Notes under the pieces: model-generated
What the model was told of the DNA's origin: nothing
Seen by the model: only the letters and a program-made list of their open reading frames with translations
Databases searched by the model: none
Shown: positions 232-13,156 of the stretch, in pieces
How positions within the stretch are numbered: the stretch's first letter is position 1
How the letters are laid out: every line of letters begins with the position of its first letter
Assembly: GCA_021843755.1 (NCBI GenBank)
Contig: JAKBWB010000061.1
Coordinates: 1-64,000, forward strand
Source of the DNA: Pseudomonadota bacterium
GTDB taxonomy: Bacteria > Pseudomonadota > Gammaproteobacteria > Steroidobacterales > Steroidobacteraceae
Direction: 5' to 3'
Length of the DNA: 64,000 bases
Translations under genes and position numbers: made by a program

Positions 232-2886
232 TTAGAACTCCGCTCTCAGCGAAGCGAATATCATACGTGGTGCACCCGGGTTACCGATGATGTACCCACC
301 CGTGGGTGTACCAAAATACCCACCAGAACTGATGTATTCCGTGGAGTTGTACTCTGTATTGGCGAGATTGATCGCTTGTACCGAGATGATGTCGGCACGG
401 GTGCCAGGAATCAAGTGAGTACGCAGGGAAACGGAAAAATTCACGAGATTGAATGCCGGCTCCGGGACGTTCGTCGGACTACCTGTATTGACGTCGAACA
501 GATAACGCGCTCCAGTGTACTGATCCCAAAGCATCGCATGCACGCGAGCCCCCGGCAGCCGGAACAAGTAACCAAGCCCGGCGTTGACCGTGTACTTTGG
601 GGAGTTGGAAACTGGCAGACCAGCGCCAGTGAATTCCTTTCCTGAAGGAGTTACGGGTGATCGGAACTGATTCCAACGCGCTTGCAAGTAGCCTACATTG
701 ACGAATCCATTCCAGTGTTCACCCATCCGGCCTTGTAAGGACAGATCCGCTCCCTTGTATACGCCCGAGCCGTTCCCGAAAAATATCGTCAACGGGTGTT
801 CCGCTGTCGTATAAGAGAACGTCTCATGCGTCATCAGATTGTGGAAGAAATCCAAGGACGCATACACGTCATGCAAAATACCGAGGTGCATCTTTACAAA
901 TCGTATCCCAATATCATATTCCTCGGATTGCCCGGGCTTGAGGGTCTGGATATCGATCGGAAATGTCGACAGGGTTCGAGAAGCATTCGGCGGATGCCGG
1001 GTGATCGAGAAGTTGCCAAACAGATGCAGGCCGCGTACGAGTTCGTAGTTGGCCCCGATCGATGGTTCAGTTTCGACAAAGTTCAGCTCCTGATCCGGGA
1101 AGGTTGGGTAGCCTAGAAACTGAAAGGTATTGCCGTTGACGGTATAAGAATTGCCTACCACGGGACAGTTGCCGTTGTTGAGGCTTGCGAACTCTATACA
1201 AGCCGCTGACTGGGATCGGTTCGACAACAGGCTTACATACTGGACGACGCGGAATCCCGGAACAATCTTTAACTGCGGTAGCGGACGGAAATCGTCCTGT
1301 ACGAAAGCGGCCGAGTAGAAGCTGCTCACGTTGTAGAGGAAACCCTGTTGCGGATACTGGAGTGTACTTCCATCAAATTTAGAAAATGTCGAATATTCGT
1401 TCAAGTGCTCATTCGCGAGGGACGTTACGACATAACCTCCGACGCTTAACGTGTCTTTACGATTGAAGCGCTCGCGCAGTGTTATCCTGTCCCCCAATGT
1501 TTTGGAGCTTTGCACGTAGTACTCCACGTTCATCGGGCTACCGGAATAGTAGGGACTGCTTGGATTGGTACTGTATTGGGTAACTCGGTAATGGAAGTCT
1601 TTGCCGATACGTATCCAGGTCATATTTGACAGTTTGAGACTCCGCGAGAGCGAGAAATGCATGTGCGACCACAGCAGCCAGTTTTGTATCAGAAGTTCCT
1701 TATGCCAAAGAGATCTGGGCAGTGTGGCGTAAAACCCGGAGGTCTGCTGGCTATAGGGTGCTCCGATGCCCAGGCCGCCGGTATCAACGAGTGGGACGGG
1801 CCGAAGCGGAATCATGTTCGGACGCCACTCGTGGTTGCGTTGATAGTATGCACCGAAGCTCACCGATGAGCCGTGGCTGAAGAGCTTGCGCGTCTTGATG
1901 TACGCCTCCTCGGTATCACTCGGTAGACTGAATTGCGAGGTGCGGAATGACAGGCTGCGTGCTGATGCAATGCCGAACACGGTCGACCAGCCGTCTATTG
2001 CTCCGGTGTTGTATACCGCCGAGTCGTCGAGTGTCTGGTCGCTGCCGCCCGCGACTTCCACGTCACCGCCTGGGAGCGCGGAAGGCTGTACGGGAATGAA
2101 ATCAATGGTGCCGCCGAGACTGGCGTACCAGCGCTCACTTGGATTACCTGGACCGACGATGACGTTCTCGCCGGCCATAAGTGCGCCGATCGGGACCTCG
2201 GGAGAGTGCCAGTCCGTAAACTCTCCCATACTATTGAGCGGCACGCCATCGAGTTCAACTGTGACCGCCTCCGATTCCAGGTCGCCGGGAATGCTGTTAT
2301 ACCCCACCTTGATGCCGCGAAGTGAGATCTGTGAGCGCCCAGTTTCGCTGTAATTGTTGTAACCCGCTACGTAGACGTTCGGCAGCATGCTGAGGGCCTG
2401 CGGACCGCCAGCGTCGGGGCCGAGCATGTTTATCATGGATTTCGTGACCGACTCAGCGGGTTGTGAGGAGTTTGCCAACTGTACGGGGGGTATGACCTGG
2501 CTCGCAAACGCCCGATACCCGTATATTTTTACTGCGTGGAGCTGGTTGAGCGTCGGTCTCGGCACAGAGGTAGAGTTCGGCGCATGGGGGTCTGGCGCCT
2601 TGGCAGGAGATACCTCACTGTGTAACGAGTAGTGTGTCCTTCTCACATATGCGTGTTCTTTTGTATCAAGGTGGGTATCGGATGTCGGCGACGAAACGGG
2701 CGCGATCTCCACGGAATCATTAGACTTGGACCGGGAAATGTGAGTTAAGGTCTGGGCGACGGAAATATGACTTGCAAGGAGGAATACGGCGCCGGCAAGG
2801 AGCGCAGCGTAAGAGGCAACGAAGCCTGAGGCAGTTCCGAACTGGCGAGGTGCACTCTGGGAGCGGGACGCGTGGTTCGTGATCAT
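232..2886 (-). CDS. TonB-dependent outer-membrane receptor
   Basis: The 884-residue protein has an N-terminal hydrophobic signal segment ending near VAQT (about residue 45) and a long linker. A plug domain (about 115-265) includes ISLRGIKVG and VTVELDGVPLN, followed by a beta-barrel that ends in the terminal Phe (SLRAEF) typical of outer-membrane proteins. Receptors of this type take up iron chelates, vitamins or carbohydrates using TonB energy; the substrate is not evident. It sits about 0.7 kb from the carbohydrate locus and is transcribed away from it, so carbohydrate uptake is possible but only inferred. It shares the lower GC content of region 1. Confidence 0.88.
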   Translation of the reverse strand: MITNHASRSQSAPRQFGTASGFVASYAALLAGAVFLLASHISVAQTLTHISRSKSNDSVEIAPVSSPTSDTHLDTKEHAYVRRTHYSLHSEVSPAKAPDPHAPNSTSVPRPTLNQLHAVKIYGYRAFASQVIPPVQLANSSQPAESVTKSMINMLGPDAGGPQALSMLPNVYVAGYNNYSETGRSQISLRGIKVGYNSIPGDLESEAVTVELDGVPLNSMGEFTDWHSPEVPIGALMAGENVIVGPGNPSERWYASLGGTIDFIPVQPSALPGGDVEVAGGSDQTLDDSAVYNTGAIDGWSTVFGIASARSLSFRTSQFSLPSDTEEAYIKTRKLFSHGSSVSFGAYYQRNHEWRPNMIPLRPVPLVDTGGLGIGAPYSQQTSGFYATLPRSLWHKELLIQNWLLWSHMHFSLSRSLKLSNMTWIRIGKDFHYRVTQYSTNPSSPYYSGSPMNVEYYVQSSKTLGDRITLRERFNRKDTLSVGGYVVTSLANEHLNEYSTFSKFDGSTLQYPQQGFLYNVSSFYSAAFVQDDFRPLPQLKIVPGFRVVQYVSLLSNRSQSAACIEFASLNNGNCPVVGNSYTVNGNTFQFLGYPTFPDQELNFVETEPSIGANYELVRGLHLFGNFSITRHPPNASRTLSTFPIDIQTLKPGQSEEYDIGIRFVKMHLGILHDVYASLDFFHNLMTHETFSYTTAEHPLTIFFGNGSGVYKGADLSLQGRMGEHWNGFVNVGYLQARWNQFRSPVTPSGKEFTGAGLPVSNSPKYTVNAGLGYLFRLPGARVHAMLWDQYTGARYLFDVNTGSPTNVPEPAFNLVNFSVSLRTHLIPGTRADIISVQAINLANTEYNSTEYISSGGYFGTPTGGYIIGNPGAPRMIFASLRAEF

Positions 2887-2944
2887 ACGTGTTACACCCT
2901 CAATAGAACTCGTTCAATGGTTCGCTGTGGCATGACGATCAACG

Positions 2945-3385
2945 TCAATGCCAGTGCGGACGGTCGGCCTTGCGCGTGATTGGCGGAGGTGGGTGTCCGG
3001 TTGGCAAACGGGACACCGGAGAGGTCGTCTTTACGCTTCCGCTATCGAAGTTCCCGCCGCTACAGTGCGGCCATCCAGTCGGGATTCCATTGGTGCCAAA
3101 GGAATGAGTTGCCGCGGCACTGATGCTATAGCTGCTGCCGGTGCCGCTCGGAGAGAAGGCAAGCGCTTGGGCGAGGCTGTCGTAGTTGGACACGCGTTTG
3201 GGGTCCGCCCGGGAAAGGATCGGTTCCGTAATCGCGGACTTGAGGTTCTGTCCGAGCCTGTGAAGTACGACCGTCCGGAGTCGTGCGCGAGGCTCGAGGG
3301 CGTGTACATTCGTGTCTGTGCGGGCGTACGCGGCTGCGGCCAACGGCGCGGCCTGTTTGACAACGGCAAGCGGCTTCAAGCTCAT
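2945..3385 (-). CDS. Uncharacterised protein between receptor and E1 genes
   Basis: This 146-residue frame starts MSLKPLAVVKQ and has a GGGGG ribosome site six bases before the ATG; an upstream in-frame ATG at 3406 is also possible. The first 70 residues look protein-like, while the end (PPPPITRKADRPHWH) is low in complexity and may reflect a decayed or shifted frame. I recognise no family. It lies upstream of the TonB receptor on the same strand and diverges from the E1 gene. It may not be a real gene. Confidence 0.3.
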   Translation of the reverse strand: MSLKPLAVVKQAAPLAAAAYARTDTNVHALEPRARLRTVVLHRLGQNLKSAITEPILSRADPKRVSNYDSLAQALAFSPSGTGSSYSISAAATHSFGTNGIPTGWPHCSGGNFDSGSVKTTSPVSRLPTGHPPPPITRKADRPHWH

Positions 3386-3524
3386 TGGGAACCCCCACCC
3401 CTTCATACTTGTGCGATAACGTACGCTGTGCTATCAATGGCGTCAAGAGTAGTTATGCGGAATAAATATGCACTCCGGCGCACCGATCGCCCGTGAACCG
3501 GATGGGTCGGCTGCGACTAAGTCC

Positions 3525-3553
3525 TTGATGGGGCAATCTAAAATCAATATATT
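3525..3553 (+). promoter_or_regulatory. Sigma70-type promoter of the carbohydrate operon
   Basis: A -35 box TTGATG (3525-3530) and a -10 box TATATT (3548-3553) are separated by exactly 17 bases, in an AT-rich stretch that stands out from its surroundings. Transcription should start near 3560. That rules out the in-frame ATG at 3555 as the E1 start. Small palindromes (GTCGAC at 3557-3562, ACTATAGT at 3561-3568) cover the predicted start point and could be part of an operator. Confidence 0.6.
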
Positions 3554-3605
3554 TATGTCGACTATAGTTATGAAGAACACCGACACAATCCAGTTGGAGA
3601 GTGAC

Positions 3606-4601
3606 GTGAGCGCGAAAACGGTGGTTGCGCTACCGGAACGGACGAAGGCGCTGGGAATGTACGAGTCCATGGTGCGGATCCGTAAGTACGAAGAGCAGAT
3701 CTACTTTCTCTTTCTAGAAGGCAGAATCTCAGGCAGCATCCATCAGTCGCACGGACAGGAGGCCTGCGCGGTGGGCGTGCTGTATGACACCCGCCCGACG
3801 GATTACATGGCGTCCACTCACCGCCCGGCGGGGCACGATCTGGCCAAGGGCGTTTCACTTAGAGCAATGATGTGCGAGATGTTCGGGAAAGCGAACGGAT
3901 GTTGCCATGGCAAGGGCGGTGCGATGCATATGGGCGACATCAGTGTGGGTGCGGTGCCGGCGAACGCGATCGTCGGAAGCAACATTCCGATAGCGGTGGG
4001 AATGGCATATTCCTGCAAGTTGCGACGGACGGACGATATCGTGGTGTGCTTCTTCGGTGATGGAGCGACCAATGAAGGAGGGTTTCACGAAGGAATAAAC
4101 GGGGCGGCTCTGTGGGACCTGCCGGTCGTTTTCGTCTGCGAGAACAATTTCTACGGTGCCTCAACGCACGTTCAGGCGACCATGAAAGTGCAGACGATCG
4201 CCGAGCGCGCAGCAGCCTACGGAATTCCAGGTGAGCGCATCGATGGCAACGATCTGATGGCCGTAAATGAAGCGGCCACAAGGGCAATTGCTCGCGCCAG
4301 ACGCGGAGGGGGCCCTACGCTGCTTGAATTGATGACTTACCGAATTGCCGGCCACTCGCGCAGCGACGCTTCTGCGTATCGTCCGGATGATGAAGAATCG
4401 GCGTGGCTTGCCAGAGATCCGATCAAGCTCTTTCGCGGCAGGCTGGTCGAGGAGAAGGTCGCGACCGATGCCGAATTGGACGCAATCGAGAACAGTGTGC
4501 AAGAGGAGGTGGATGGGGCGGTGCAATTTGCGGAGTCTTCGCAGGATCCTGAGCCTGAGGATGCGCTGCGGAATGTCTACGCCGGAGAAGGGGAAGTCTG
4601 A
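3606..4601 (+). CDS. TPP-dependent dehydrogenase E1 alpha (acetoin/pyruvate type)
   Basis: This is the alpha subunit of a thiamine-diphosphate 2-oxoacid or acetoin dehydrogenase (AcoA/PdhA family). It carries the family features SGSIHQSHGQEA, the HRPAGH loop and the TPP/Mg motif GDGATNEG followed about 30 residues later by the paired Asn of VCENNFYG. I chose the GTG at 3606 because GGAG lies six bases upstream and the product then starts close to the conserved MYESMVRIRKYE. The in-frame ATGs at 3468 and 3555 lie before the predicted transcription start; ATG 3570 remains possible. Its stop overlaps the E1 beta start (TGATG). The substrate is unknown; sugar genes downstream argue against plain pyruvate. 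Confidence 0.88.
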   Translation: MSAKTVVALPERTKALGMYESMVRIRKYEEQIYFLFLEGRISGSIHQSHGQEACAVGVLYDTRPTDYMASTHRPAGHDLAKGVSLRAMMCEMFGKANGCCHGKGGAMHMGDISVGAVPANAIVGSNIPIAVGMAYSCKLRRTDDIVVCFFGDGATNEGGFHEGINGAALWDLPVVFVCENNFYGASTHVQATMKVQTIAERAAAYGIPGERIDGNDLMAVNEAATRAIARARRGGGPTLLELMTYRIAGHSRSDASAYRPDDEESAWLARDPIKLFRGRLVEEKVATDAELDAIENSVQEEVDGAVQFAESSQDPEPEDALRNVYAGEGEV

Positions 4602-5617
4602 TGCCGCAGATGTCGATCGTAGAGGCGTTGAACCAGGCCATTGCAGAGGAAATGGCGCGGGATGAGCGCGTGTTTTGCTTGGGAGAAGACGTCAGTGACG
4701 CCAATGGCGGCTACGGAGGCGCTTTTGCGGTGACCCGGGGTCTGCATGGCAAATTCGGTCCCGAGCGTGTACTGAACACCCCCATCTCTGAGATGCTGAT
4801 CGTAGGCATGGCGGTCGGCGCGGCCATGGCCGGCATGCGGCCGATTGCTGACGTGCAATACGGTGACTTTCTCTTCTGTTGCATGGACCAGTTGGTCAAC
4901 CAGGCCGCGAAGATGCGATACATGTCAGGGGGGCGCGTCAGTGTGCCTATGGTGATGCGTGCGCCAGTTGGCGCCACGGGTCGCGGCGCCCAGCACGCCC
5001 AAAGCCTGGAGGGGTTCTTTACGCACGCGCCGGGACTCAAAGTGATTTGCCCGGCTACCGCTTACGACGCCAAAGGTCTGCTTAAGACGGCGATTCGCGA
5101 CGATAATCCCGTTCTGGTTTTCGAGCACAAGCTTCTCTACGGAGGCAAGCGGACCGAGAGCGGCGCCTTGTCCATGGTGGGAGAGGTACCCGCGGAAGAT
5201 TACACTGTGCCGTTTGGGCGAGGGGTGGTGCGCCGGGAGGGAAAGGATATCACCATCGTGGCCAACCTCCTGATGATGTACCGGGCAATGGATGCCGCTG
5301 CGGAACTTGACGAGGACGACATCAGTTGCGAAGTGATCGATCCGCGTACCTTGGCGCCATTTGACTATGAGCTGGTGATTGAGTCGCTCAGGAAAACGCG
5401 CCGATTGATGATCGTTCACGAAGACACCTATAGCAACGGCTGGGGGGCGCAGCTCGCCTCCTATATCGCCGAGCACGAAATCTACCTGCTCGATGCGCCG
5501 ATCAAACGATTGGCGGCATATGACGTTCCGATTCCGTGTGCGCCGGTCATGGAGAAGTTCGTCATTCCATCGACTGCTCGTATCATCGACGCAGCCCGCT
5601 CCCTCATGAAGATGTAA
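4601..5617 (+). CDS. TPP-dependent dehydrogenase E1 beta
   Basis: The 338-residue protein matches the AcoB/PdhB family over its whole length. It has an N-terminal pyrimidine-binding fold (MSIVEALNQAIAEEM, FCLGEDV, NTPISEMLIVGMAVGAAM) and a C-terminal transketolase-like domain (VIDPRTLAPFD, VHEDTYSNGWGAQLA). It forms an alpha2-beta2 E1 with the preceding product and passes an acyl group to the lipoyl E2. The start codon overlaps the E1 alpha stop, which points to translational coupling. No dihydrolipoyl dehydrogenase (E3) is encoded nearby, so the complex would have to use a shared one. Confidence 0.9.
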   Translation: MPQMSIVEALNQAIAEEMARDERVFCLGEDVSDANGGYGGAFAVTRGLHGKFGPERVLNTPISEMLIVGMAVGAAMAGMRPIADVQYGDFLFCCMDQLVNQAAKMRYMSGGRVSVPMVMRAPVGATGRGAQHAQSLEGFFTHAPGLKVICPATAYDAKGLLKTAIRDDNPVLVFEHKLLYGGKRTESGALSMVGEVPAEDYTVPFGRGVVRREGKDITIVANLLMMYRAMDAAAELDEDDISCEVIDPRTLAPFDYELVIESLRKTRRLMIVHEDTYSNGWGAQLASYIAEHEIYLLDAPIKRLAAYDVPIPCAPVMEKFVIPSTARIIDAARSLMKM

Positions 5618-5634
5618 CACACAGGCGTAAAGAC

Positions 5635-6537
5635 ATGTCGTCCATTCGATGCGTCGATCTTCTCAAGCGTGCGCGTGCTGGCAGCTACGCGGTCGGATAT
5701 TTCGAGGCGTGGAGTCTGGAATCACTTCTCGCTATCGTACGTGCGGCCGAGATTGCCCGATCTCCAGTGATGACGGGGTTTTGCGGCGAATATCTTGCTA
5801 ATCCGACGCGCAGGTTCAAGGAGGAGATCGGCCTGTACGGGGCAATTGCGAGGAAGGTTGCCTCGAATGCCTCGGTTCCGGTGGCTACTCTGCTCAACGA
5901 GTCGATCGACATGAACGTGGCATACAGAGGCGTCAAGGCGGGCTTCGATATGGTCATGTTCGTTGATGAGGAAATGCCCGCGGAGAAATTGATTGAGCCG
6001 ACGCGGAAGCTGGTGGAATTCGCGCACGCATGTGACGTCGCTGTTGAAGGAGAGGTTGGGGCTCTGGGAATGGTAGAGCACCTGGGAGGAAAGCGGCACT
6101 CCGGCAGAGCCACCGATCCCGAAATGGCCGCGAAGTTCGTGCAATGCACGGGCGTGGATGCGCTGGCCGTCTCGGTCGGCAACGTGCACTTTCTCGAGGG
6201 GGCCAAGGCCAGACTTGACTTCGAGTTGCTCGAAGACCTGCATCGTAAAGTCTCCGTTCCCCTGGTTCTGCATGGAGGTACGGGTATCGACAAGGCGGAG
6301 TTTGAGCCGAGCATCGCACGTGGAGTTGCCAAGGTCAATGTGGGATCGTGCCTCAAACGGACCGTACTGGAGTGTGAGAATGGCTATTTCTCCATGAACG
6401 AGGTAGGAAAGTTGAATCCTAACGATGTACTCGGCCGGGGCGGCGCGCTCGATGTGATGATGCGAAGCCAAGAGGCATTAATAGAAGAAGTGCTTGGCTT
6501 CATCAGGGCGTTTGGAGGCGAGAATAAGGCGGCATAG
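5635..6537 (+). CDS. Class II aldolase-like protein with altered active site
   Basis: About 300 residues with the TIM-barrel pattern of class II ketose-bisphosphate aldolases: VKAGFDMVMFVDE, VEGEVGALGMVEHLGG, VSVGNVHFLEG and VLHGGTGI, then a phosphate-loop-like VAKVNVGSCLK. The usual LDHG after beta-strand 3, which supplies the catalytic Asp and a zinc His, is replaced here by LNES. The later Glu and the two His (GNVHF, LHGG) remain. Ordinary Zn-dependent aldol cleavage is therefore doubtful. The gene sits between E1 beta and E2, 17 bases after E1 beta and 9 before E2, so it probably acts in the same step. The start is ATG 5635; longer starts lie inside E1 beta. Confidence 0.8.
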   Translation: MSSIRCVDLLKRARAGSYAVGYFEAWSLESLLAIVRAAEIARSPVMTGFCGEYLANPTRRFKEEIGLYGAIARKVASNASVPVATLLNESIDMNVAYRGVKAGFDMVMFVDEEMPAEKLIEPTRKLVEFAHACDVAVEGEVGALGMVEHLGGKRHSGRATDPEMAAKFVQCTGVDALAVSVGNVHFLEGAKARLDFELLEDLHRKVSVPLVLHGGTGIDKAEFEPSIARGVAKVNVGSCLKRTVLECENGYFSMNEVGKLNPNDVLGRGGALDVMMRSQEALIEEVLGFIRAFGGENKAA

Positions 6538-6546
6538 GGGAGCACC

Positions 6547-7761
6547 ATGATTACAAAGATCCCTATGCCATCGGGAGGCACCAATACGGACCGACTGCGC
6601 GTCGTTTCATGGCGGAAGGGGGTGGGTGAGCCCGTGAACCGCGGTGACGTATTGCTTGAGGTCGAGACGGACAAATCTATCCTCGAAGTGGAGAGCTTTG
6701 CCAAGGGTACGTTGCTGAAGCAGGCGATACCGGAGGGGGAGTTCGCTGTCGTCGGTGAGGTGATCGCATATATCGGGAATCCTGAGGACGCCAAAGATCT
6801 GGATACACCCACGGGGGGGGAGGGAGGCAAGCGTGCGCCGGAGGGTTCCGAGCCAGGGGCCTCGACAGAGAAGTCGGCCGCTCCGGATCGCGCAGCCTCC
6901 GTTCGTAGTTCCGCCTCGACGGGTGCGGTACAGGCAACGCCGGCTGCCAAGAGAGCAATCCGCGAACTCGGCGTGTCGATCGCGGCCGTTCATGCGGCGA
7001 CGGGCAAGGACACGCTGAGCGCTGATGACGTGGCACGATTTGCGGCGGCGCGCGAGCACGACCGGCTGCAACAGGGTGCACCGTTCGATCTGCGACCTCT
7101 TACGTCCATCCGCCGCAGCATCGCCGATCGGATGCAGATTGGGGCGTCGATTCCGACATTCAACGCGGAAATCGAAATCGAGGCGAGCAGCTGCATGCGC
7201 TTGCGATCCGATATGAATGCGCAAAGAAATGACGTGAAGGTGGCATATCACGATATCATTGCGAAAGGGGTTGCTGTCGTATGCCGCAGCCACCCGTTGG
7301 TGAATGCATCATTTACCAATGAGGGCATCCGCGTCTTTCGTTCCGTCAACGTTGGCCTTGCGGTTTCAATAGATCAGGGGCTCGTGGTTCCGGTCGTACG
7401 GAATGTGGACGAAAAAACAATCATCGCGATAGCCGCGGAGAATGCCGGGAACATCAGGCAGGTGCGGGAGGGAAAAATCGATGCGGAACTACTTCAACAC
7501 GGGACCTTCACGATTTCCAATCTCGGCAGCTATGGGATTCCCCGATTCACGGCAATCCTGAACCCGCCGCAGTCCTGCATTCTGGCCATAGGTGCGATTC
7601 AAACACGCGCGGTTTCGAGGGAGCGGTCCTGGCATGAAGTTCCGATGATGTCGATTACAGGTACGTTCGACCACAGGGTCATAGACGGTGCGTACGGAGC
7701 CCGGTTCCTGCTGGACCTAAAGAAGGTTTTGGAGCATCCGGAGCGGATTCGCGACGCATGA
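6547..7761 (+). CDS. Dihydrolipoamide acyltransferase E2
   Basis: The 404-residue protein has the usual E2 layout. An N-terminal lipoyl domain carries the lipoyl-lysine motif ETDKS (Lys43). A linker follows, then a peripheral subunit-binding domain (about 134-166; TPAAKRAIRELGV). The catalytic domain ends with DHRVIDG, whose His is near residue 376 and Asp near 380. It would take an acyl group from the E1 beside it and transfer it to CoA. Having a single lipoyl domain is common in acetoin-type complexes. It is the fourth gene of the tightly packed set that begins at 3606. Confidence 0.9.
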   Translation: MITKIPMPSGGTNTDRLRVVSWRKGVGEPVNRGDVLLEVETDKSILEVESFAKGTLLKQAIPEGEFAVVGEVIAYIGNPEDAKDLDTPTGGEGGKRAPEGSEPGASTEKSAAPDRAASVRSSASTGAVQATPAAKRAIRELGVSIAAVHAATGKDTLSADDVARFAAAREHDRLQQGAPFDLRPLTSIRRSIADRMQIGASIPTFNAEIEIEASSCMRLRSDMNAQRNDVKVAYHDIIAKGVAVVCRSHPLVNASFTNEGIRVFRSVNVGLAVSIDQGLVVPVVRNVDEKTIIAIAAENAGNIRQVREGKIDAELLQHGTFTISNLGSYGIPRFTAILNPPQSCILAIGAIQTRAVSRERSWHEVPMMSITGTFDHRVIDGAYGARFLLDLKKVLEHPERIRDA

Positions 7762-8008
7762 GATCGTCGTCCCGATTGCGGGGCCGTCCCCCCGGGCTCC
7801 TGCTTGGTGGGAGCGGAGGAACCGAGAGGGCGAGAGCGGTTGCATGACCGTCGAGCACGGCCCTGTGGTCTGGGTGTCCAGTCATGGGCACAAGCAAGCG
7901 GTGCGTGCGGGAACCCGTGGCATCGGCAGCAGTTGCCGACAGTGAAGGTCGCGGTCTTCAAGACTCTCAGACACTTGCCGCGCACGGTGCGATAACAGAG
8001 GGGATAAA

Positions 8009-9562
8009 ATGCCTCAATATCTGCTGGGACTCGATCACGGAACTGGTGGGGTGAAGGGCTGCATCATCGACGAGTCGGCCAATGTCCTGGGGTACGCGTA
8101 CCGGGAGTATCCGATCTATTCGAATGCGCCGGGGTGGTCGGAGCACGACCCGGACATCTACTGGGTTGCCGCTTGCGAGGTGATCCGCGAGTGCATCGGT
8201 GCTGCCGGGATTCGTCCCGAGGAGATCAAGGGGATCGCCAATTCCTCCGCTCTGCCGTCATTGGTGATGGTGGACCGCGACCACAATCCAATTGAGCTCG
8301 CGTACAACCTGATGGACCGGCGTGCCACGGAGCAGGTTCAATGGCTACGAGAAAACATCGGTGAAGAACGCCTATTCCGCGTGAGCCGAAACCGTCTGGA
8401 GGATCACCCGATACTCGTCAACCTGATGTGGGAGAGGCAAAATCGCCCTGAGAGCTTTGCCCGGATCCATAAGGCGCTGACGATCGATGGCTATATCCGG
8501 CTGAAGCTCACCGGTCGGGCGACGGCGAACTTCTCGTCGGGGGCGTTTTTCGGGGTCGCGTATGACCTTAAGCGAAATTGTTTCGACGAGAACTTGCTGC
8601 GGGAAATAGGTCTTGATCCGGAAATTCTACCGGAATTCTTCTCGTGCGAAGATATAGTGGGAGAAACGCTGCCCGCCGCCGCGAAGTCGGCCGGGCTTGT
8701 TCCTGGCATTCCAGTCGCCGCGGGTTCCGTAGACTGCAATGCAGGCTGGATGGGTGGCGGTGCCGTGCGTACCGGCGACATCCAGATCAATCTTGGCACA
8801 TGCGGGGTGATCGGAGTGATCCACGAGGATCCGGAGCTGATCGTGGATACGATGATCAACTGCTCGTATGTTACCGACTCCAGAAAGGTCTTCGCCACCG
8901 TGGCCGCCACGACCTGCGGCGGACAGTCGCTTCGGTATCTTCGGGATAACTTTTCCCAGCTGGAAGTCGCGACGGAAAAGGTAGTGCCCGGCTTCAGTGC
9001 GTACGACAGCATGGAAAAGCAGGCCGAGTCCGTGCCTCTCGGCTGCGATGGGTTGGTGGTTTTGCCCTATCTCATGGGTGAGCGCACGCCACTGTGGGAC
9101 GTCGAGGCGCGTGGGGTCATTTTTGGGTTATCGCTTCATCACACGAAGGCGCACCTGGTACGCGCGACGATGGAAGGCGTCACATTCGCGATGTACGAGT
9201 CGTTTCAGATCATTCAGAAGCGTTCGTCGAAACTGAACTTCCCGATCGTTCTAAACGAAGGTGGAGCCAGGAATCGCCTCTGGCGCCGTATGATCACGGA
9301 TGTCTTTAACGTGCCGACCGTATTTGTCAGAAGTCGCATAGGGGCGCCGATGGGAGATGCGATTCTCGCGGGTGTAGCAGTCGGGGTGTTCAAGGACTTT
9401 TCGATTGCAAGGACAAAATCCGAGTACGTCGATCCGATGGAGCCGGTGGCCGAGGAGCACGAGCGCTACATGGAGTATTACCGGCTTTTTGGAAGCGTCT
9501 ACTGCGATCTCAAACAGGAGTTCCAACAGCTCTCGCGTATTCGGGCAAAGCGCTCCAATTAG
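8009..9562 (+). CDS. FGGY-family carbohydrate kinase
   Basis: The 517-residue protein is a xylulokinase-like FGGY kinase. The N-terminal phosphate loop DHGTGG, the catalytic-Asp region AAGSVDCNAG and the C-terminal ADP-binding stretch NEGGARNRLWRRMITDV are all present. Such enzymes phosphorylate ketoses, polyols or related compounds such as AI-2. The start has a good ribosome site (GAGGGGATAAAATG). A 247-base gap separates it from E2. The gap holds an inverted repeat TCGGCA-N5-TGCCGA (7923-7939) that could be an operator. With the SDR and polyol permease downstream, its likely substrate is a ketose made from an imported polyol. Confidence 0.88.
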   Translation: MPQYLLGLDHGTGGVKGCIIDESANVLGYAYREYPIYSNAPGWSEHDPDIYWVAACEVIRECIGAAGIRPEEIKGIANSSALPSLVMVDRDHNPIELAYNLMDRRATEQVQWLRENIGEERLFRVSRNRLEDHPILVNLMWERQNRPESFARIHKALTIDGYIRLKLTGRATANFSSGAFFGVAYDLKRNCFDENLLREIGLDPEILPEFFSCEDIVGETLPAAAKSAGLVPGIPVAAGSVDCNAGWMGGGAVRTGDIQINLGTCGVIGVIHEDPELIVDTMINCSYVTDSRKVFATVAATTCGGQSLRYLRDNFSQLEVATEKVVPGFSAYDSMEKQAESVPLGCDGLVVLPYLMGERTPLWDVEARGVIFGLSLHHTKAHLVRATMEGVTFAMYESFQIIQKRSSKLNFPIVLNEGGARNRLWRRMITDVFNVPTVFVRSRIGAPMGDAILAGVAVGVFKDFSIARTKSEYVDPMEPVAEEHERYMEYYRLFGSVYCDLKQEFQQLSRIRAKRSN

Positions 9563-9600
9563 CGCATCCGATCCAATATGGCGTTGCACACAGGAGAAGG

Positions 9601-10440
9601 ATGATGACTCAGGCAAAGTCCTTGAACAATTTGGTGGTCAAAGAAATCACGAGCGTGGCGGCTCGGTTTACCCTGAAAGGTAAGAAAGCCATCGTCACGG
9701 GCGCGAAAGGAGGTATTGGGAGGGCGACAGCTACCGCCTTCGCCGAACTCGGCGCGGATGTGGCCATTGTGGACTTGCCCGCAGCGGTGGGTGAGTCTGA
9801 AGCCGTCGCGAAATCACTCAGTGGGCGGTTTGGGGTGAAATCGGTGGCCATAGGCGCTGATCTGTGTCAGGAAAACGACGTCAAGGAAATGACCCGCAGA
9901 GTGGTCGACGCGTTTGGAACGATCGACGTCGTACACAGCAACGCGGGCATCTTTGACATGGGGGACAATCCGCAAATGCCGGTCGGCGCGTTCAAGCGAA
10001 TTGTCGATGTGAATCTCCTGGGGATGTTTCTGGTCAACCGTGAATGTGCGGAAGTTATGGTCGCCCATAAGCATGGAGGGTCGATCATAAACACGGTGTC
10101 CATGTCCGGCAGCATCGTGAATCCCACGCGGACGGAGACCGATTACATGGTTGCATACACGGCGTCGAAAGGCGGAGCGAAACACCTTACCAAAGCCATG
10201 GCCGTAAATTACATTAGGCATGGAATTCGAATCAACTCGGTCAGCCCGGGTTACCTGATATCCGGGGCGCATGCCGCAATGTCCCAGAAGGATGTCGACT
10301 GGTGGGCCAACTCCGTGCCAATCAAGCGATTCGGTGAAATGGACGAGATCGTCGGTATCGTGTGCCTTCTGGCGACGGATCTTGCCACGTACTTTGTCGG
10401 GTCCGACATCATCATGGATGGTGGCGCGACGATCACTTAA
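9601..10440 (+). CDS. SDR-family dehydrogenase, probable polyol/ketose oxidoreductase
   Basis: A 279-residue classical short-chain dehydrogenase. The cofactor-binding TGAKGGIG lies at about 34-41, followed by SNAGIF, the catalytic Ser region NTVSMSG and the YTASK active site, then the family's usual C-terminus MDGGATIT. An extension of about 25 residues precedes the first strand. It follows the kinase by 38 bases and has a ribosome site (AGGAGAAGG). By context it probably oxidises the imported polyol to a ketose before phosphorylation; the exact substrate cannot be read from the sequence. Confidence 0.85.
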   Translation: MMTQAKSLNNLVVKEITSVAARFTLKGKKAIVTGAKGGIGRATATAFAELGADVAIVDLPAAVGESEAVAKSLSGRFGVKSVAIGADLCQENDVKEMTRRVVDAFGTIDVVHSNAGIFDMGDNPQMPVGAFKRIVDVNLLGMFLVNRECAEVMVAHKHGGSIINTVSMSGSIVNPTRTETDYMVAYTASKGGAKHLTKAMAVNYIRHGIRINSVSPGYLISGAHAAMSQKDVDWWANSVPIKRFGEMDEIVGIVCLLATDLATYFVGSDIIMDGGATIT

Positions 10441-10781
10441 GCGCAGGTGGTTCCGGACGCGTGTTGGGCCGGGCGTGGCGCGTGCGAGAGCTGCGGAAAC
10501 GGCGGAGTCTGTCGGCGACCTGTCCAGGATCTGGCTCGGCAAGGGAATGGGGTTGAGCGTAATTCACGAGCCAATCTGCGTACGGTTGGTCATGGTGATG
10601 CCATAAAGGGGAAAGGGGCGCGGCCGGTCGACGCCTCATGATCGGGCCGCGGGCGAAGGGGGTTCACGGCGGTCTGGAGCGGACGGAAAGAGGCGGCCTG
10701 TAGAGCGGCAATGTGACTGACGGGCGAGTCTAGGCTGATGAGGTCGCAATAGGCAGCGGATCATGTCGGGAGTCATATAAA
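10441..10781. other. Intergenic gap of 341 bases within the carbohydrate locus
   Basis: There is no convincing gene between the SDR and the permease. Short frames here have no recognisable content and no ribosome sites. The right end becomes more AT-rich just before the permease (TCATATAAATTG), so a separate promoter for the permease and regulator genes could lie here, but no clear -35/-10 pair is seen. Confidence 0.4.
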
Positions 10782-12122
10782 TTGGCGAACAGCGAATCAC
10801 CGCGAAGACCGGTGGCGGCTGGGCCCCAGGGCGGTCCTGGCCTGCGCGGAGTCGAGGAGGAGGTGGAAGGCGCGGGTTTGTTGTATAGGATTGGGATTCC
10901 GCCCGCACTGTTGTGGGGATTTGTAGGTCTGCTGTTCTTTCTGACGGGAGATGGGGTCGAATCGGGGTATCTCGCGCCGTTTCTCGCCGATAGATTGCAT
11001 CTCTCGCCAAGCGCGGTAGGCGTCGTCTTTACGTGTTACGGGTTTGCGGCGGCCGCCGCAGGCTGGTTTTCTGGCGCGCTCTCAGACGTCTGGGGTCCTC
11101 GTCGCGTCATCTGCATCGGATTCTTCATCTGGATCCTCTTGGAGGTGCCGTTTCTCGTGTTCGGCATCGGCCACAATGATTATGCGGTCATTCTGTTGAC
11201 CTATGGTCTTAGGGGTCTTGGATATCCTCTATTTGCCTATGGATTCCTCGTTTGGATAACTGTTGTCGCGCCGAGGAATCGGCTGGCTTCCGCCATGGGA
11301 TGGTTCTGGTTCGCCTTTACGGGAGGACTCCCGACTCTCGGGTCGCTATTCGCGCGGTTCTGGATACCGAGAATAGGCCGCTTAGATACCCTCTGGGCTT
11401 CGACAGGGCTGGTCATCCTTGGGGGGGCGATTCTTTTGTTAGGCGTGAAAGAGCGTCGCGGTAGGTCTCGACTGGTGGCAGGGAGCGAGAGACCGGTGCG
11501 CGCGCTGATCGGGTCGTTGAAGCTGGCGGTGAGGAAGCCAAGAACGCTCGTGGCGTGCATAGTACGCGCGATAAACACGGCGCCAGAGTTCGGGTTTTTC
11601 ATCATTCTCCCAGCGTATTTCGAGAAGACAATTGGATTTCCACAGCGGGACTTCCTGACTCTCCTGAGCACGATGTTTTTGTCAAACATCGTGTGGAATT
11701 TGCTGTTTGGGATGCTTGCGGACGTGTTGGGCTGGCGTCGAACGATTGCGTACTGCGGTGGCTTTGGATGTGCGTTGACTACGCTGGCGCTATATTACGT
11801 TCCGATGGCCACGCATAGTTTCGTGCTGAGCCTGGCCGTGGGCGCGGCGTATGGCGCGACTCTCGCCGGGTATGTGCCGCTGTCGGCCACAGCGCCGATG
11901 CTGGAGCCGGAACATCGTGGAGAGGCCTTGTCGCTCCTGAGTCTGGGTGCTAGTGCGGCAATGCTGCTCGGTCCAGCGATTGTGACGCTTTCTTTGGGCG
12001 AAGTCGGAGTCAAGGGAGTGATGTGGATTTTTGCGATGCTGTACGTCGCAAGCGGAATAATGGCACTCATATGGCTCCAGGTGCCCGAGAGCGATGGCGC
12101 TGCAAGGGATGCGCCCGTGTGA
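10782..12122 (+). CDS. MFS polyol permease (RbtT/DalT family)
   Basis: A 12-helix major facilitator. The sequence closely follows the polyol porter family of ribitol and D-arabinitol permeases: a WGFVGLLFFLTGDGVESGYL-type first helix, VVFTCYGFAAAAAGWFSG, FGIGHNDYAVILLTYGLRGL, ASAMGWFWF and the later VRAINTAPEFGF. This is the strongest clue that the locus handles a sugar alcohol. No ATG fits. TTG 10782 gives 446 residues, but TTG 10878, preceded by GAAGG at a good distance, would start right before the conserved first helix and may be the real start. The regulator gene follows after 17 bases. Confidence 0.85.
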   Translation: MANSESPRRPVAAGPQGGPGLRGVEEEVEGAGLLYRIGIPPALLWGFVGLLFFLTGDGVESGYLAPFLADRLHLSPSAVGVVFTCYGFAAAAAGWFSGALSDVWGPRRVICIGFFIWILLEVPFLVFGIGHNDYAVILLTYGLRGLGYPLFAYGFLVWITVVAPRNRLASAMGWFWFAFTGGLPTLGSLFARFWIPRIGRLDTLWASTGLVILGGAILLLGVKERRGRSRLVAGSERPVRALIGSLKLAVRKPRTLVACIVRAINTAPEFGFFIILPAYFEKTIGFPQRDFLTLLSTMFLSNIVWNLLFGMLADVLGWRRTIAYCGGFGCALTTLALYYVPMATHSFVLSLAVGAAYGATLAGYVPLSATAPMLEPEHRGEALSLLSLGASAAMLLGPAIVTLSLGEVGVKGVMWIFAMLYVASGIMALIWLQVPESDGAARDAPV

Positions 12123-12139
12123 TATAAAATCCGCGGTGG

Positions 12140-13156
12140 GTGTTCGGCTATCCCGTGAATGGAGGCCATAAGATTCCAAACTATACCAACCAGCAGCTCA
12201 TTTTGGCGGCCCGGCTATACTATCTAGAAGGTATGTCTCAGGCTGAGATCGCGACGTTTGTCCGGGTGTCGCAGCCGAAGATTTCGCGCATGCTCGCCAT
12301 CGCGCAGCAGCGGGGAATTGTGCGGATCTCCGTTCCTGAGTATGAGTCCCGGAATCCTGAGCTCGAGAAAGCGCTGGCCAAGACATTCTCGATCGATGCG
12401 GTTGTCATTCACAGCATCGGAGGGGTGGAGATGATACCGCTGCGGCGCATCATGGGGTACTTTGCGGCATCTGTGGTTGGAAAATGGATCAAGGCACACT
12501 CACTTGTCGTGCTTTCCGGCGGACGCGCCGTGCAGGCGCTTGTGGAGCAGATGCAGCCCGTGCAACCGATTCCGGACCTGCGGATTGCCACGGGGATGGG
12601 ACACATCGATTCGATGCCAGGACCGTACGACGCATCGGAGCTTTGCAGGGACTTGGCACGCCGCTGGCAGGGAAGTGTGCTCAGCTTGAATGGTCCTCTC
12701 ATATTTCCTGATGAAGGTTCGTGCCAGGAGGTGGTACGGCTTCCTCAGATCCAGGAAGTGCTGCGCGCTGTCGTGAGGGCGAATGTTCTGATCTTTGGTG
12801 TGGGGGCAATGCACAATTCGCTGCTGTTCGAGCGGGATCTCTTCACCCGAGCGGAAATCGGAAAGTTGGCGGACGCGGGGGCGGTAGGGGAGGTGCTTGG
12901 ACGATTTTACAACGCCAAAGGGGTCGAGTGCCAAACTACGGTGCGTAATCGGACTCTGAGCATCGATCTTGCGAAACTGCGTGGGATAGCGAGGCGAATT
13001 GCTGTTGTTGTCGGGGTGGACAGAACTGCTGCTGTCCTTGGGGCAATACGGGGTAAAATACTCAACACGCTCGTGACGGAGGAGTCGTGCGCGGAAGCTC
13101 TTTTGAGGATGGGTTCGCGTCGGTCGAACGGAAAGACGGACGGATCCTCTCGGTAG
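12140..13156 (+). CDS. SorC/DeoR-family sugar-responsive transcriptional regulator
   Basis: The 338-residue protein has an N-terminal helix-turn-helix (LYYLEGMSQAEIATFVRVSQPKISRML) and a long C-terminal SorC-type sugar-phosphate-binding domain (VVLSGGRAVQALVE, VLIFGVGAM). Relatives include EryD, LsrR, DeoR-like and SorC proteins, which usually respond to a phosphorylated intermediate of the pathway they control. It is in the same transcription unit as the permease. The expected effector is the product of the FGGY kinase and the expected target is the promoter at 3525-3553. The start is GTG 12140; GTG 12155 is an alternative. Confidence 0.85.
   Translation: MFGYPVNGGHKIPNYTNQQLILAARLYYLEGMSQAEIATFVRVSQPKISRMLAIAQQRGIVRISVPEYESRNPELEKALAKTFSIDAVVIHSIGGVEMIPLRRIMGYFAASVVGKWIKAHSLVVLSGGRAVQALVEQMQPVQPIPDLRIATGMGHIDSMPGPYDASELCRDLARRWQGSVLSLNGPLIFPDEGSCQEVVRLPQIQEVLRAVVRANVLIFGVGAMHNSLLFERDLFTRAEIGKLADAGAVGEVLGRFYNAKGVECQTTVRNRTLSIDLAKLRGIARRIAVVVGVDRTAAVLGAIRGKILNTLVTEESCAEALLRMGSRRSNGKTDGSSR

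Follow-up and report, generated by a model that had tools for sequence, protein, structure and literature searches.

What does a thiamine- and lipoate-dependent dehydrogenase do inside a polyol operon, and why does an aldolase-like gene lie among its subunits? The question is raised by eight genes near the start of a 64,000-nucleotide stretch of DNA (hereafter the window; contig JAKBWB010000061.1, assembly GCA_021843755.1) from a bacterium of the Steroidobacteraceae. A sequence-only reading had described a packed set of genes for the two subunits of a thiamine diphosphate (ThDP)-dependent dehydrogenase (E1 alpha and E1 beta), an aldolase-like protein (ALD) and an E2, followed by an FGGY kinase, a short-chain dehydrogenase/reductase (SDR), a polyol permease and a SorC-type regulator. 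The open reading frame list, Pfam and NCBIfam bear this out, placing all eight on the plus strand (Table 1). On balance, the locus probably represents an undescribed polyol or sugar route that has hopped between phyla. In it a rewired class II aldolase would pass part of a ketose phosphate to a ThDP/lipoate complex of its own, giving acyl-CoA (glycolyl- or acetyl-CoA) and triose phosphate and bypassing pyruvate. Front ends would vary between loci: polyol dehydrogenase with FGGY kinase, aldose isomerase with PfkB kinase, or polyol kinase with a GlpD-like enzyme.

Pairing of the aldolase-like protein with an E1

Support for a joint module comes from the pairing of the genes, the grouping of the E1 beta sequences, the presence of this E1 in most ALD genomes sampled and the frequency of sugar kinases in the flanks. 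Of 47 family loci, drawn from many phyla, 37 have an E1 gene no more than 1.5 kb from ALD, and 38 have one within 6 kb. At none of 30 control loci for PF01116 aldolases was one of the window's other seven proteins matched within about 1.5 kb; these controls, 30 of 59 PF01116 matches in the host's phylum (one of the 59 being the window's own), come from one phylum and are for the most part high-scoring aldolases of housekeeping type, unmatched for phylum or sugar operons. Five of the nine loci with no nearby E1 are on short contigs or have ALD at a contig end (L013, L019, L021, L041, L053); the other four are not so placed (L014, L030, L032, L052).

E1 beta sequences from 38 ALD loci (the window, L056 and 36 others) fall on one side of a branch with support 100/98, opposite 14 other E1s. 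A larger tree of 76 rows, pruned of the rows of nine loci that duplicate copies already included, unites the 41 E1 betas carrying a GG[FWY]GGAF insertion in one group (SH-aLRT 100). At L045 the E1 beta is off the contig. E1 of the ALD-associated type was found in 13 of 14 hand-picked genomes of ALD loci, and where ALD has no adjoining E1, the gene is encoded elsewhere in the genome in four cases out of five (L014, L021, L030, L032). A different ThDP enzyme standing in for E1 at L014 and L030 was considered, the candidates being a fucose-isomerase-domain protein and a PGA_cap protein, and was dropped: both genomes have the E1 elsewhere.

The ALD/E1 cassette is rare and scattered across phyla. 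In a sample of 60 genomes of relatives, searched at E 1e-20, ALD was found in the host alone. When 398 genomes from the host's phylum were searched for motif-bearing ALD (E 1e-40) and for the ALD-type E1 beta (E 1e-112), each was again found in the host alone, at thresholds that would miss distant members (the L046 E1 scores 4e-105), and the same phylum also includes L037 and L040. Two further genomes matching ALD at 1e-40 were set aside for their canonical LDHG motif. In the phylum to which L012's genome belongs, a search of 296 genomes for ALD only (E 1e-60) found it in that genome alone. Could ALD simply be the host's own glycolytic aldolase, here by chance? It is the sole PF01116 protein in the host genome (G000) at E 1e-20, where there is also one PF01791 protein, but its absence from the other 59 sampled relatives at that threshold and the conservation of its pairing with E1 across phyla make the probability close to negligible.

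A remodelled aldolase-like protein and an atypical E1

By fold and family profile ALD is a class II (PF01116) aldolase, but it reads YFEAW and LLNES where ordinary members have the AFN and LDH motifs. Three changes at catalytic or metal positions occur jointly in the family: Asn to Glu, Asp to Asn and His to Glu. The Asn-Glu pair replaces Asp-His in 46 of 47 readable family rows, the window included and L050 excepted, whereas the canonical Asp-His is kept in 30 of 30 control aldolases. The positions so replaced are D109 of Escherichia coli FbaA, the catalytic Asp, and the adjoining metal His; the family also has a carboxylate at the Asn position in rows where the Asp has turned into Asn. E142 (the C3 base) and H187 and H215 (the other two metal His) are invariant in 40 ALD rows. 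The family retains HG, but the stretch HGxYK after the second His is lost. According to PMC5434028, aldol cleavage by FbaA needs D109, the D109A variant being inactive on fructose bisphosphate, and 4-epimerisation does not. The matches listed in profile and fold searches with ALD carry aldolase descriptions, with the exception of 9a4l (ALF-ACNA, an integrative model) and of two weak profile matches, the uncharacterised 4ml9 and the designed Kemp eliminase 6c7h. By its motifs, ALD belongs to a distinct class II aldolase subfamily.

E1, E2 and SDR have kept their active-site motifs intact: the ThDP motif, the lipoyl Lys (ETDK), the E2 HxxxDG (HRVIDG) and the SDR YxxxK (YTASK) are all present. 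The eight genes include no dihydrolipoyl dehydrogenase (E3), for which two matches over the curated cut-off are found in the host genome. ThDP motif, lipoyl Lys, HxxxDG and E3 genes elsewhere in the genome are what a ThDP-lipoate dehydrogenase complex of the 2-oxoacid/acetoin type should have. Is it then an ordinary pyruvate dehydrogenase (PDH) or acetoin dehydrogenase, in a polyol operon by chance next to an ordinary aldolase? The standard ThDP and lipoyl motifs would fit, E1 beta exceeds the cut-off of the PDH subfamily model NF006667 (352.6 of 321 bits), and the best PDB matches come from human PDH for E1 alpha and from a Thermus 2-oxoacid enzyme for E1 beta. However, E1 alpha falls under both PDH E1-alpha equivalogs (TIGR03182, 341 of 393.85 bits; TIGR03181, 280.4 of 411.35) and E1 beta falls under the PDH equivalog NF008854 (339.1 of 454). 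The ALD-associated group also has its own E1 alpha motifs, STHRP.GH (L038 and L017 differ), PA[IVN]AI or PSIAI or similar, and YR..GHSR.D, besides the E1 beta insertion. Acetoin and 2,3-butanediol genes are absent from the eight (Pfam, NCBIfam), and ALD, like nearly all of its family, lacks the catalytic Asp and one metal His of an ordinary aldolase.

The pocket motif GANG[IM]VGG of two acetoin-operon reference E1s (L065, Enterococcus; L066, Acinetobacter), whose loop reads GHFEGD, is not in the window's E1 alpha. Human PDH E1 alpha reads GGNGIVG and YRYHGHS where the window reads PANAIVG and YRIAGHS. The His of YRYHGHS has a role in PDH E1 alpha, but its absence does not by itself exclude a pyruvate enzyme, because the annotated pdhA of L067 (YRFRAHS) also lacks it. 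On the E1 alpha cut-offs, the motifs and the tree, and with the one PDH subfamily cut-off passed by E1 beta set against them, a plain PDH or acetoin dehydrogenase is improbable.

A proposed route from polyol to acyl-CoA

The sequence-only reading was to be refuted if no relative shared the gene neighbourhood; the neighbourhood recurs, and that refutation fails. Kinase, SorC-type regulator, polyol or alcohol dehydrogenase, ALD, E1 and lipoyl/E2 genes co-occur in L007 (Synergistota), L043, L044, L046/L047 (Actinomycetota) and L056 (an Arthrobacter plasmid). The window's kinase is 60% identical to that of L007, 50% to that of L056 and 45-46% to those of L043, L044 and L046, and its E1 beta is 75% identical to one in the genome of L007. 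ATP-binding cassette (ABC) importer genes replace the major facilitator superfamily (MFS) permease in L007, L043, L046 and L056; L007 also has an E3, and a zinc alcohol dehydrogenase instead of the SDR. L056, the plasmid of Arthrobacter sp. FW306-07-I, is typed conjugative and runs ALD (cut at the record start), a fused E1, a lipoyl protein, an FGGY kinase, a SorC-type regulator, three ABC genes, a second FGGY kinase and an SDR. Since the neighbourhood is conserved, a new pathway seems likely. The earlier statement that no characterised pathway has this gene set stands as a weak negative, no description having been found in literature searched by title and the start of the abstract (best 10-20 matches per search).

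Across the fetched flanks of 49 loci, neighbour clusters, counted anywhere in the flanks and each named after a scan of one or two of its members, include PfkB kinases in 30 and FGGY kinases in 12, a D-lyxose-isomerase-like short protein in 16, a full-length D-lyxose/mannose-isomerase-like protein in 8, GH38 mannosidases in 8, URO-D-like proteins in 7 and GlpD-like proteins in 5. The URO-D-like neighbours and GH38 mannosidases were weighed as a pointer to a single common substrate and found not decisive, as only some loci have them. The GlpD-like FAD gene, which resembles polyol-phosphate dehydrogenases, lies immediately upstream of ALD in its five loci (L039, L042, L043, L046, L047). By analogy with GlpD and EryB it would make a ketose 1-phosphate, and its position suggests that such a phosphate and an aldolase-type reaction come ahead of E1. 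L014 carries an FGGY kinase, a protein with a fucose-isomerase C-terminal domain, and ALD. These gene contents suggest that loci like the window, L007 and L056 are polyol-type versions and that versions with isomerase and PfkB act on aldoses; all front ends would converge on a ketose phosphate.

At a probability of roughly 0.4, we read the locus as an acquired polyol operon built around a module of ALD, ThDP E1 and lipoyl/E2 and run in the order kinase, ALD, E1/E2. The RbtT/DalT-type permease would import a polyol, which the SDR would convert to a ketose and the FGGY kinase to a ketose phosphate, probably at C1. ALD would act on this, most likely by splitting off dihydroxyacetone phosphate and leaving a short hydroxyaldehyde, for instance glycolaldehyde. 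E1 would then take the aldehyde (or another acyloin-type product of ALD) onto ThDP, from where it would be oxidised onto lipoate; E2 would release an acyl-CoA, for example glycolyl-CoA, and a housekeeping E3 would re-oxidise the lipoate. We commit to the order of the steps; the weakest point is which bond is cleaved. Even at some loci where E1 is elsewhere (L014, L021, L030, L041), ALD is accompanied by genes for a kinase, an isomerase or a polyol-phosphate dehydrogenase, and nearly all of the ALD genomes checked have the E1, from which we infer that the kinase product is the substrate of ALD and the ALD product that of E1. The GlpD-like neighbours and the aldolase fold are the reasons for favouring a ketose 1-phosphate. 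By analogy, two further loci are consistent with the scheme: L014, which resembles a fucose-type set of isomerase, kinase and aldolase, and L164, in which a canonical aldolase stands beside an acetoin-type E1.

L164, in the genome of L018, has acetoin-type E1 alpha and beta genes, then a canonical class II aldolase (LDHC motif) and what by eye is a HAD-type phosphatase, and appears to be an independent aldolase-E1 pairing. Another apparently sugar-linked E1/E2 locus, at 237-10906 of a Clostridioides difficile plasmid (L060), has genes for a cellulase-family hydrolase, a GH43 hydrolase, an MFS transporter and a sugar-binding regulator, then E1 alpha, E1 beta, E2 and lpdA.

Several observations pull against this order of steps. 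ALD has a PfkB or FGGY cluster kinase within 1.5 kb at only 19 of the 45 loci counted (PfkB 14, FGGY 6; L006, L050 and two loci with no called ALD fall outside the count), leaving 26 that have none so close; occurrence of this E1 apart from ALD was surveyed in one phylum sample; and E1 beta passes a PDH subfamily cut-off. All three weaken the proposal. At L042, ALD is paired with an E1 outside the ALD-associated group, and no ALD-type E1 was found in the genome of L041. The Asp that FbaA requires for aldol cleavage is Asn in ALD, so ALD may not be a cleaving aldolase, and the loss of HGxYK may mean altered phosphate binding. The window's FGGY kinase is nearest to xylulokinase, whose product is a 5-phosphate, and oxidation of a free hydroxyaldehyde by E1/E2 would be unusual. 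A lipoyl domain is present in every E1-bearing locus but L018, L035, L042 and L045, yet no acyltransferase (CAT) domain was found in 13 of the lipoyl-bearing loci (L015, L016, L017, L022, L029, L037, L038, L039, L040, L048, L049, L051, L056), a list that includes two near copies, L037 and L040, as well as L039, where a single weak and distant match was seen, and that does not count L019, cut by the contig end. Some systems may therefore use another E2 or another acceptor, and CoA need not be the acceptor in every locus.

Could E1 attack the ketose phosphate itself? So the sequence-only reading had it, from polyol to ketose phosphate and then direct E1/E2 cleavage. In an elaboration of this scheme the kinase would give a ketose 5-phosphate, which E1 would cut between C2 and C3 into an aldose phosphate, for example glyceraldehyde 3-phosphate, and glycolyl-CoA (or, if the substrate is a 1-deoxy-ketose, acetyl-CoA), with ALD as an epimerase or isomerase that supplies the right ketose phosphate. 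The kinase, being nearest to XylB, would suit it. The E1 loop GHSR.D has an Arg, as DXR-II-linked E1s (see below) have Lys or Arg, where the two acetoin-operon E1s have FEGD. FbaA D109A still 4-epimerises, according to PMC5434028, and a 1986 title cited in PMC3424233 has 1-deoxyketoses formed by PDH and acetoin dehydrogenase, the reverse chemistry. The idea of a 1-deoxy-ketose substrate also gains independent support from another E1 group, the rhizobial acetoin-type E1/E2 tied to DXR-II, which implies a 1-deoxyketose phosphate. What held of the earlier scheme is the conserved neighbourhood and an E1 whose motifs differ from the pyruvate and acetoin references. Direct attack on the ketose phosphate is not, or not yet, supported: as first put, it leaves ALD, the most constant partner, without a role, and the GlpD-like gene before ALD in five loci points elsewhere, to a 1-phosphate. 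Nothing indicates the need for an epimerase, and the pocket motif PA[IN]AIVG, with its close forms, differs from the GANGIVG of the DXR-II-linked group. Direct cleavage is possible but unproven, and rather unlikely.

A bolder alternative would have ALD enolise a ketose 1-phosphate and eliminate phosphate or water, leaving a 1-deoxy (or deoxy) 2,3-dicarbonyl that E1 would cleave in the manner of acetoin dehydrogenase to acetyl-CoA and an aldonic acid. ALD retains the C3 base E142 and has lost the C4-OH base (Asp to Asn) and part of its phosphate grip (residue roles in part from PMC5434028). E1 alpha reads STHR..GH as in acetoin-type E1s, unlike the AYRAHG of human PDH, and acetyl-CoA would suit the E2. 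Against it, none of the annotated neighbours, which are a part of all neighbours, was recognisable as an aldonate or glycerate gene; we regard the dicarbonyl route as quite improbable.

If the preferred order of kinase, ALD and E1/E2 is right, it would be a new branch of central sugar metabolism in many little-studied phyla, yielding acyl-CoA directly from a ketose phosphate: an outcome like that of phosphoketolase, reached through thiamine and lipoate. A clear family of proteins that at present go by the names fructose-bisphosphate aldolase and pyruvate/acetoin dehydrogenase would also gain a shared function open to testing, and by similar reasoning DXR-II would have a catabolic role in rhizobia.

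The locus beside known systems

Table 1. Genes of the window's locus and extents of the rhizobial-type loci.
Feature	Position	Strand	Basis
E1 alpha, ThDP-dependent dehydrogenase	3525..4601	+	PF00676 1.5e-86; motifs STHRPAGHDLAKG, VPANAIVG, YRIAGHS
E1 beta, aldolase-associated group, GG[FWY]GGAF insertion	4601..5617	+	PF02779/PF02780
Class II FBA-like protein (ALD), remodelled subfamily, ATG at 5635	5635..6537	+	
E2	6547..7761	+	lipoyl PF00364, E3-binding PF02817, acyltransferase PF00198; ETDK, HRVIDG
FGGY carbohydrate kinase	8009..9562	+	PF00370/PF02782; TIGR01312 (XylB) nearest model, below cut-off
SDR dehydrogenase	9601..10440	+	PF13561 4e-48; YTASK
RbtT/DalT/CsbX-type MFS polyol permease	10782..12122	+	TIGR00897 493.4 bits, above cut-off 375
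SorC-type sugar-binding regulator	12140..13156	+	PF04198 5e-51, 173.8 bits, above cut-off 27
Rhizobial-type SorC-DXR-II (DRL)-E1 alpha-E1 beta-E2 loci	L059 6676-11327; L062 5598-10245; L063 5556-10223; L064 4598-9251; also L109-L118		

From the first gene to the eighth, the intergenic gaps are -1, 11 (17 from the ALD ATG), 9, 247, 38, 341 and 17 nt. E1 alpha, E1 beta, ALD and E2 thus form the tight block, and the larger gaps before the kinase and between SDR and permease mean that the kinase and the MFS gene may have promoters of their own. Inverted repeats in four intergenic stretches amount to three short pairs confined to two stretches, none common to stretches, and a common operator was dropped for that reason. 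A further ATG is open upstream of E1 alpha, at 3468, and the real start of the permease may lie downstream of 10782, because the TIGR00897 match starts at residue 36. The kinase scores 302.9 bits against the xylulokinase model TIGR01312, its best NCBIfam model, under a cut-off of 380.25. The SDR is under cut-off in all of the best 25 of 218 NCBIfam models, its probable role being polyol or alcohol oxidation, and the regulator scores under cut-off on the DeoR and LsrR models.

GC content is 58.1% across the locus against 67.0% from 14001 onward, and a horizontally acquired island or polyol operon is the natural reading; the window's first base is the contig start, which bounds the view on the left. 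Divergently oriented at 232-2886 on the minus strand (GC 54.4%) is an 884-residue protein, TonB-dependent-receptor-like by eye, with no Pfam or NCBIfam match at E 0.001; it is possibly the outer-membrane component of the same island. An 8,596-base contig filed under an Acidiphilium metagenome-assembled genome (L006, DAIDMG010000102.1) has one mismatch to window 2147-10742, reflecting either shared DNA or mis-binning.

In the course of these comparisons, four plasmids (L059, L062, L063, L064) were seen to carry a SorC-type regulator, a 441-residue oxidoreductase, E1 alpha, E1 beta and E2. Their importers are glucitol-type phosphotransferase system genes (L062, L063) or ABC sugar importer genes (L059, L064), and the oxidoreductases are 55-90% identical among themselves. 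The L062 enzyme has a match to PF21135 (DRL catalytic domain), and the L059 enzyme matches the solved structures 3upl/3upy of Brucella DXR-II at 5e-205 over 435 residues. Neighbourhoods were fetched for 30 of 45 DXR-II matches, eight second copies at 65-67% being left out. Where the oxidoreductase is at least 81% identical, E1 alpha and beta lie directly downstream in 10 of 10 fetched loci, eight of which carry one genus label, whereas no E1 was found within about 1.5 kb in five loci at 52-63% and 15 at about 30-35%; at L063, with 56%, E1 is present. DXR-II converts 1-deoxyxylulose 5-phosphate to methylerythritol phosphate, as stated in PMC3847144. Run in reverse and catabolically, it would lead from methylerythritol phosphate through 1-deoxyxylulose 5-phosphate to acetyl-CoA and glyceraldehyde 3-phosphate. 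The rhizobial loci are therefore presented as a candidate 2-C-methylerythritol/1-deoxyxylulose 5-phosphate catabolic operon, which might explain the presence of DXR-II in bacteria that also have DXR-I. By analogy this suggests that acetoin-type E1/E2 complexes, of an E1 group other than the window's, may act on 1-deoxyketose phosphates.

How does the window compare with better-known systems? It shares with acetoin dehydrogenase operons (acoABCL type, as in L065 and L066) the order E1 alpha-E1 beta-E2 and the STHR..GH motif; acetoin dehydrogenase makes acyl-CoA from a non-acid carbonyl. The window differs from them in having no lpd, acetoin reductase or butanediol dehydrogenase, an extra aldolase and sugar kinase, a pocket PANAIVG for GANG[IM]VGG and a loop GHSRSD for GHFEGD. 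The RbtT/DalT-type permease, SDR, FGGY kinase and SorC regulator, and the GlpD-like enzyme of related loci, are those of pentitol and erythritol operons (rbt/dal, ery), which feed the pentose phosphate pathway or isomerases; none is known to have a ThDP/lipoate complex. Fucose and rhamnose routes likewise run from aldose or polyol through ketose and ketose 1-phosphate to an aldolase, with a gene set similar to L014, but there a simple dehydrogenase or reductase handles the aldehyde instead of E1/E2, and the aldolase is from another family.

Handing an aldolase product to an acyl-CoA-forming enzyme resembles DmpFG and BphIJ, which combine a pyruvate-type aldolase with an NAD/Cys acylating dehydrogenase and use neither ThDP nor lipoate. 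Class II fructose-bisphosphate and ketose aldolases (3q94, YdjI 6ofu, SqiA 8q59) differ from ALD in its Asp to Asn change, one metal His to Glu, the AFN Asn to Glu and the lost HGxYK. The rhizobial SorC-DXR-II-E1-E2 loci also set an acetoin-type E1/E2 in a polyol or sugar importer locus with a SorC-type regulator, but have an E1 of a different group and DXR-II where the window has ALD.

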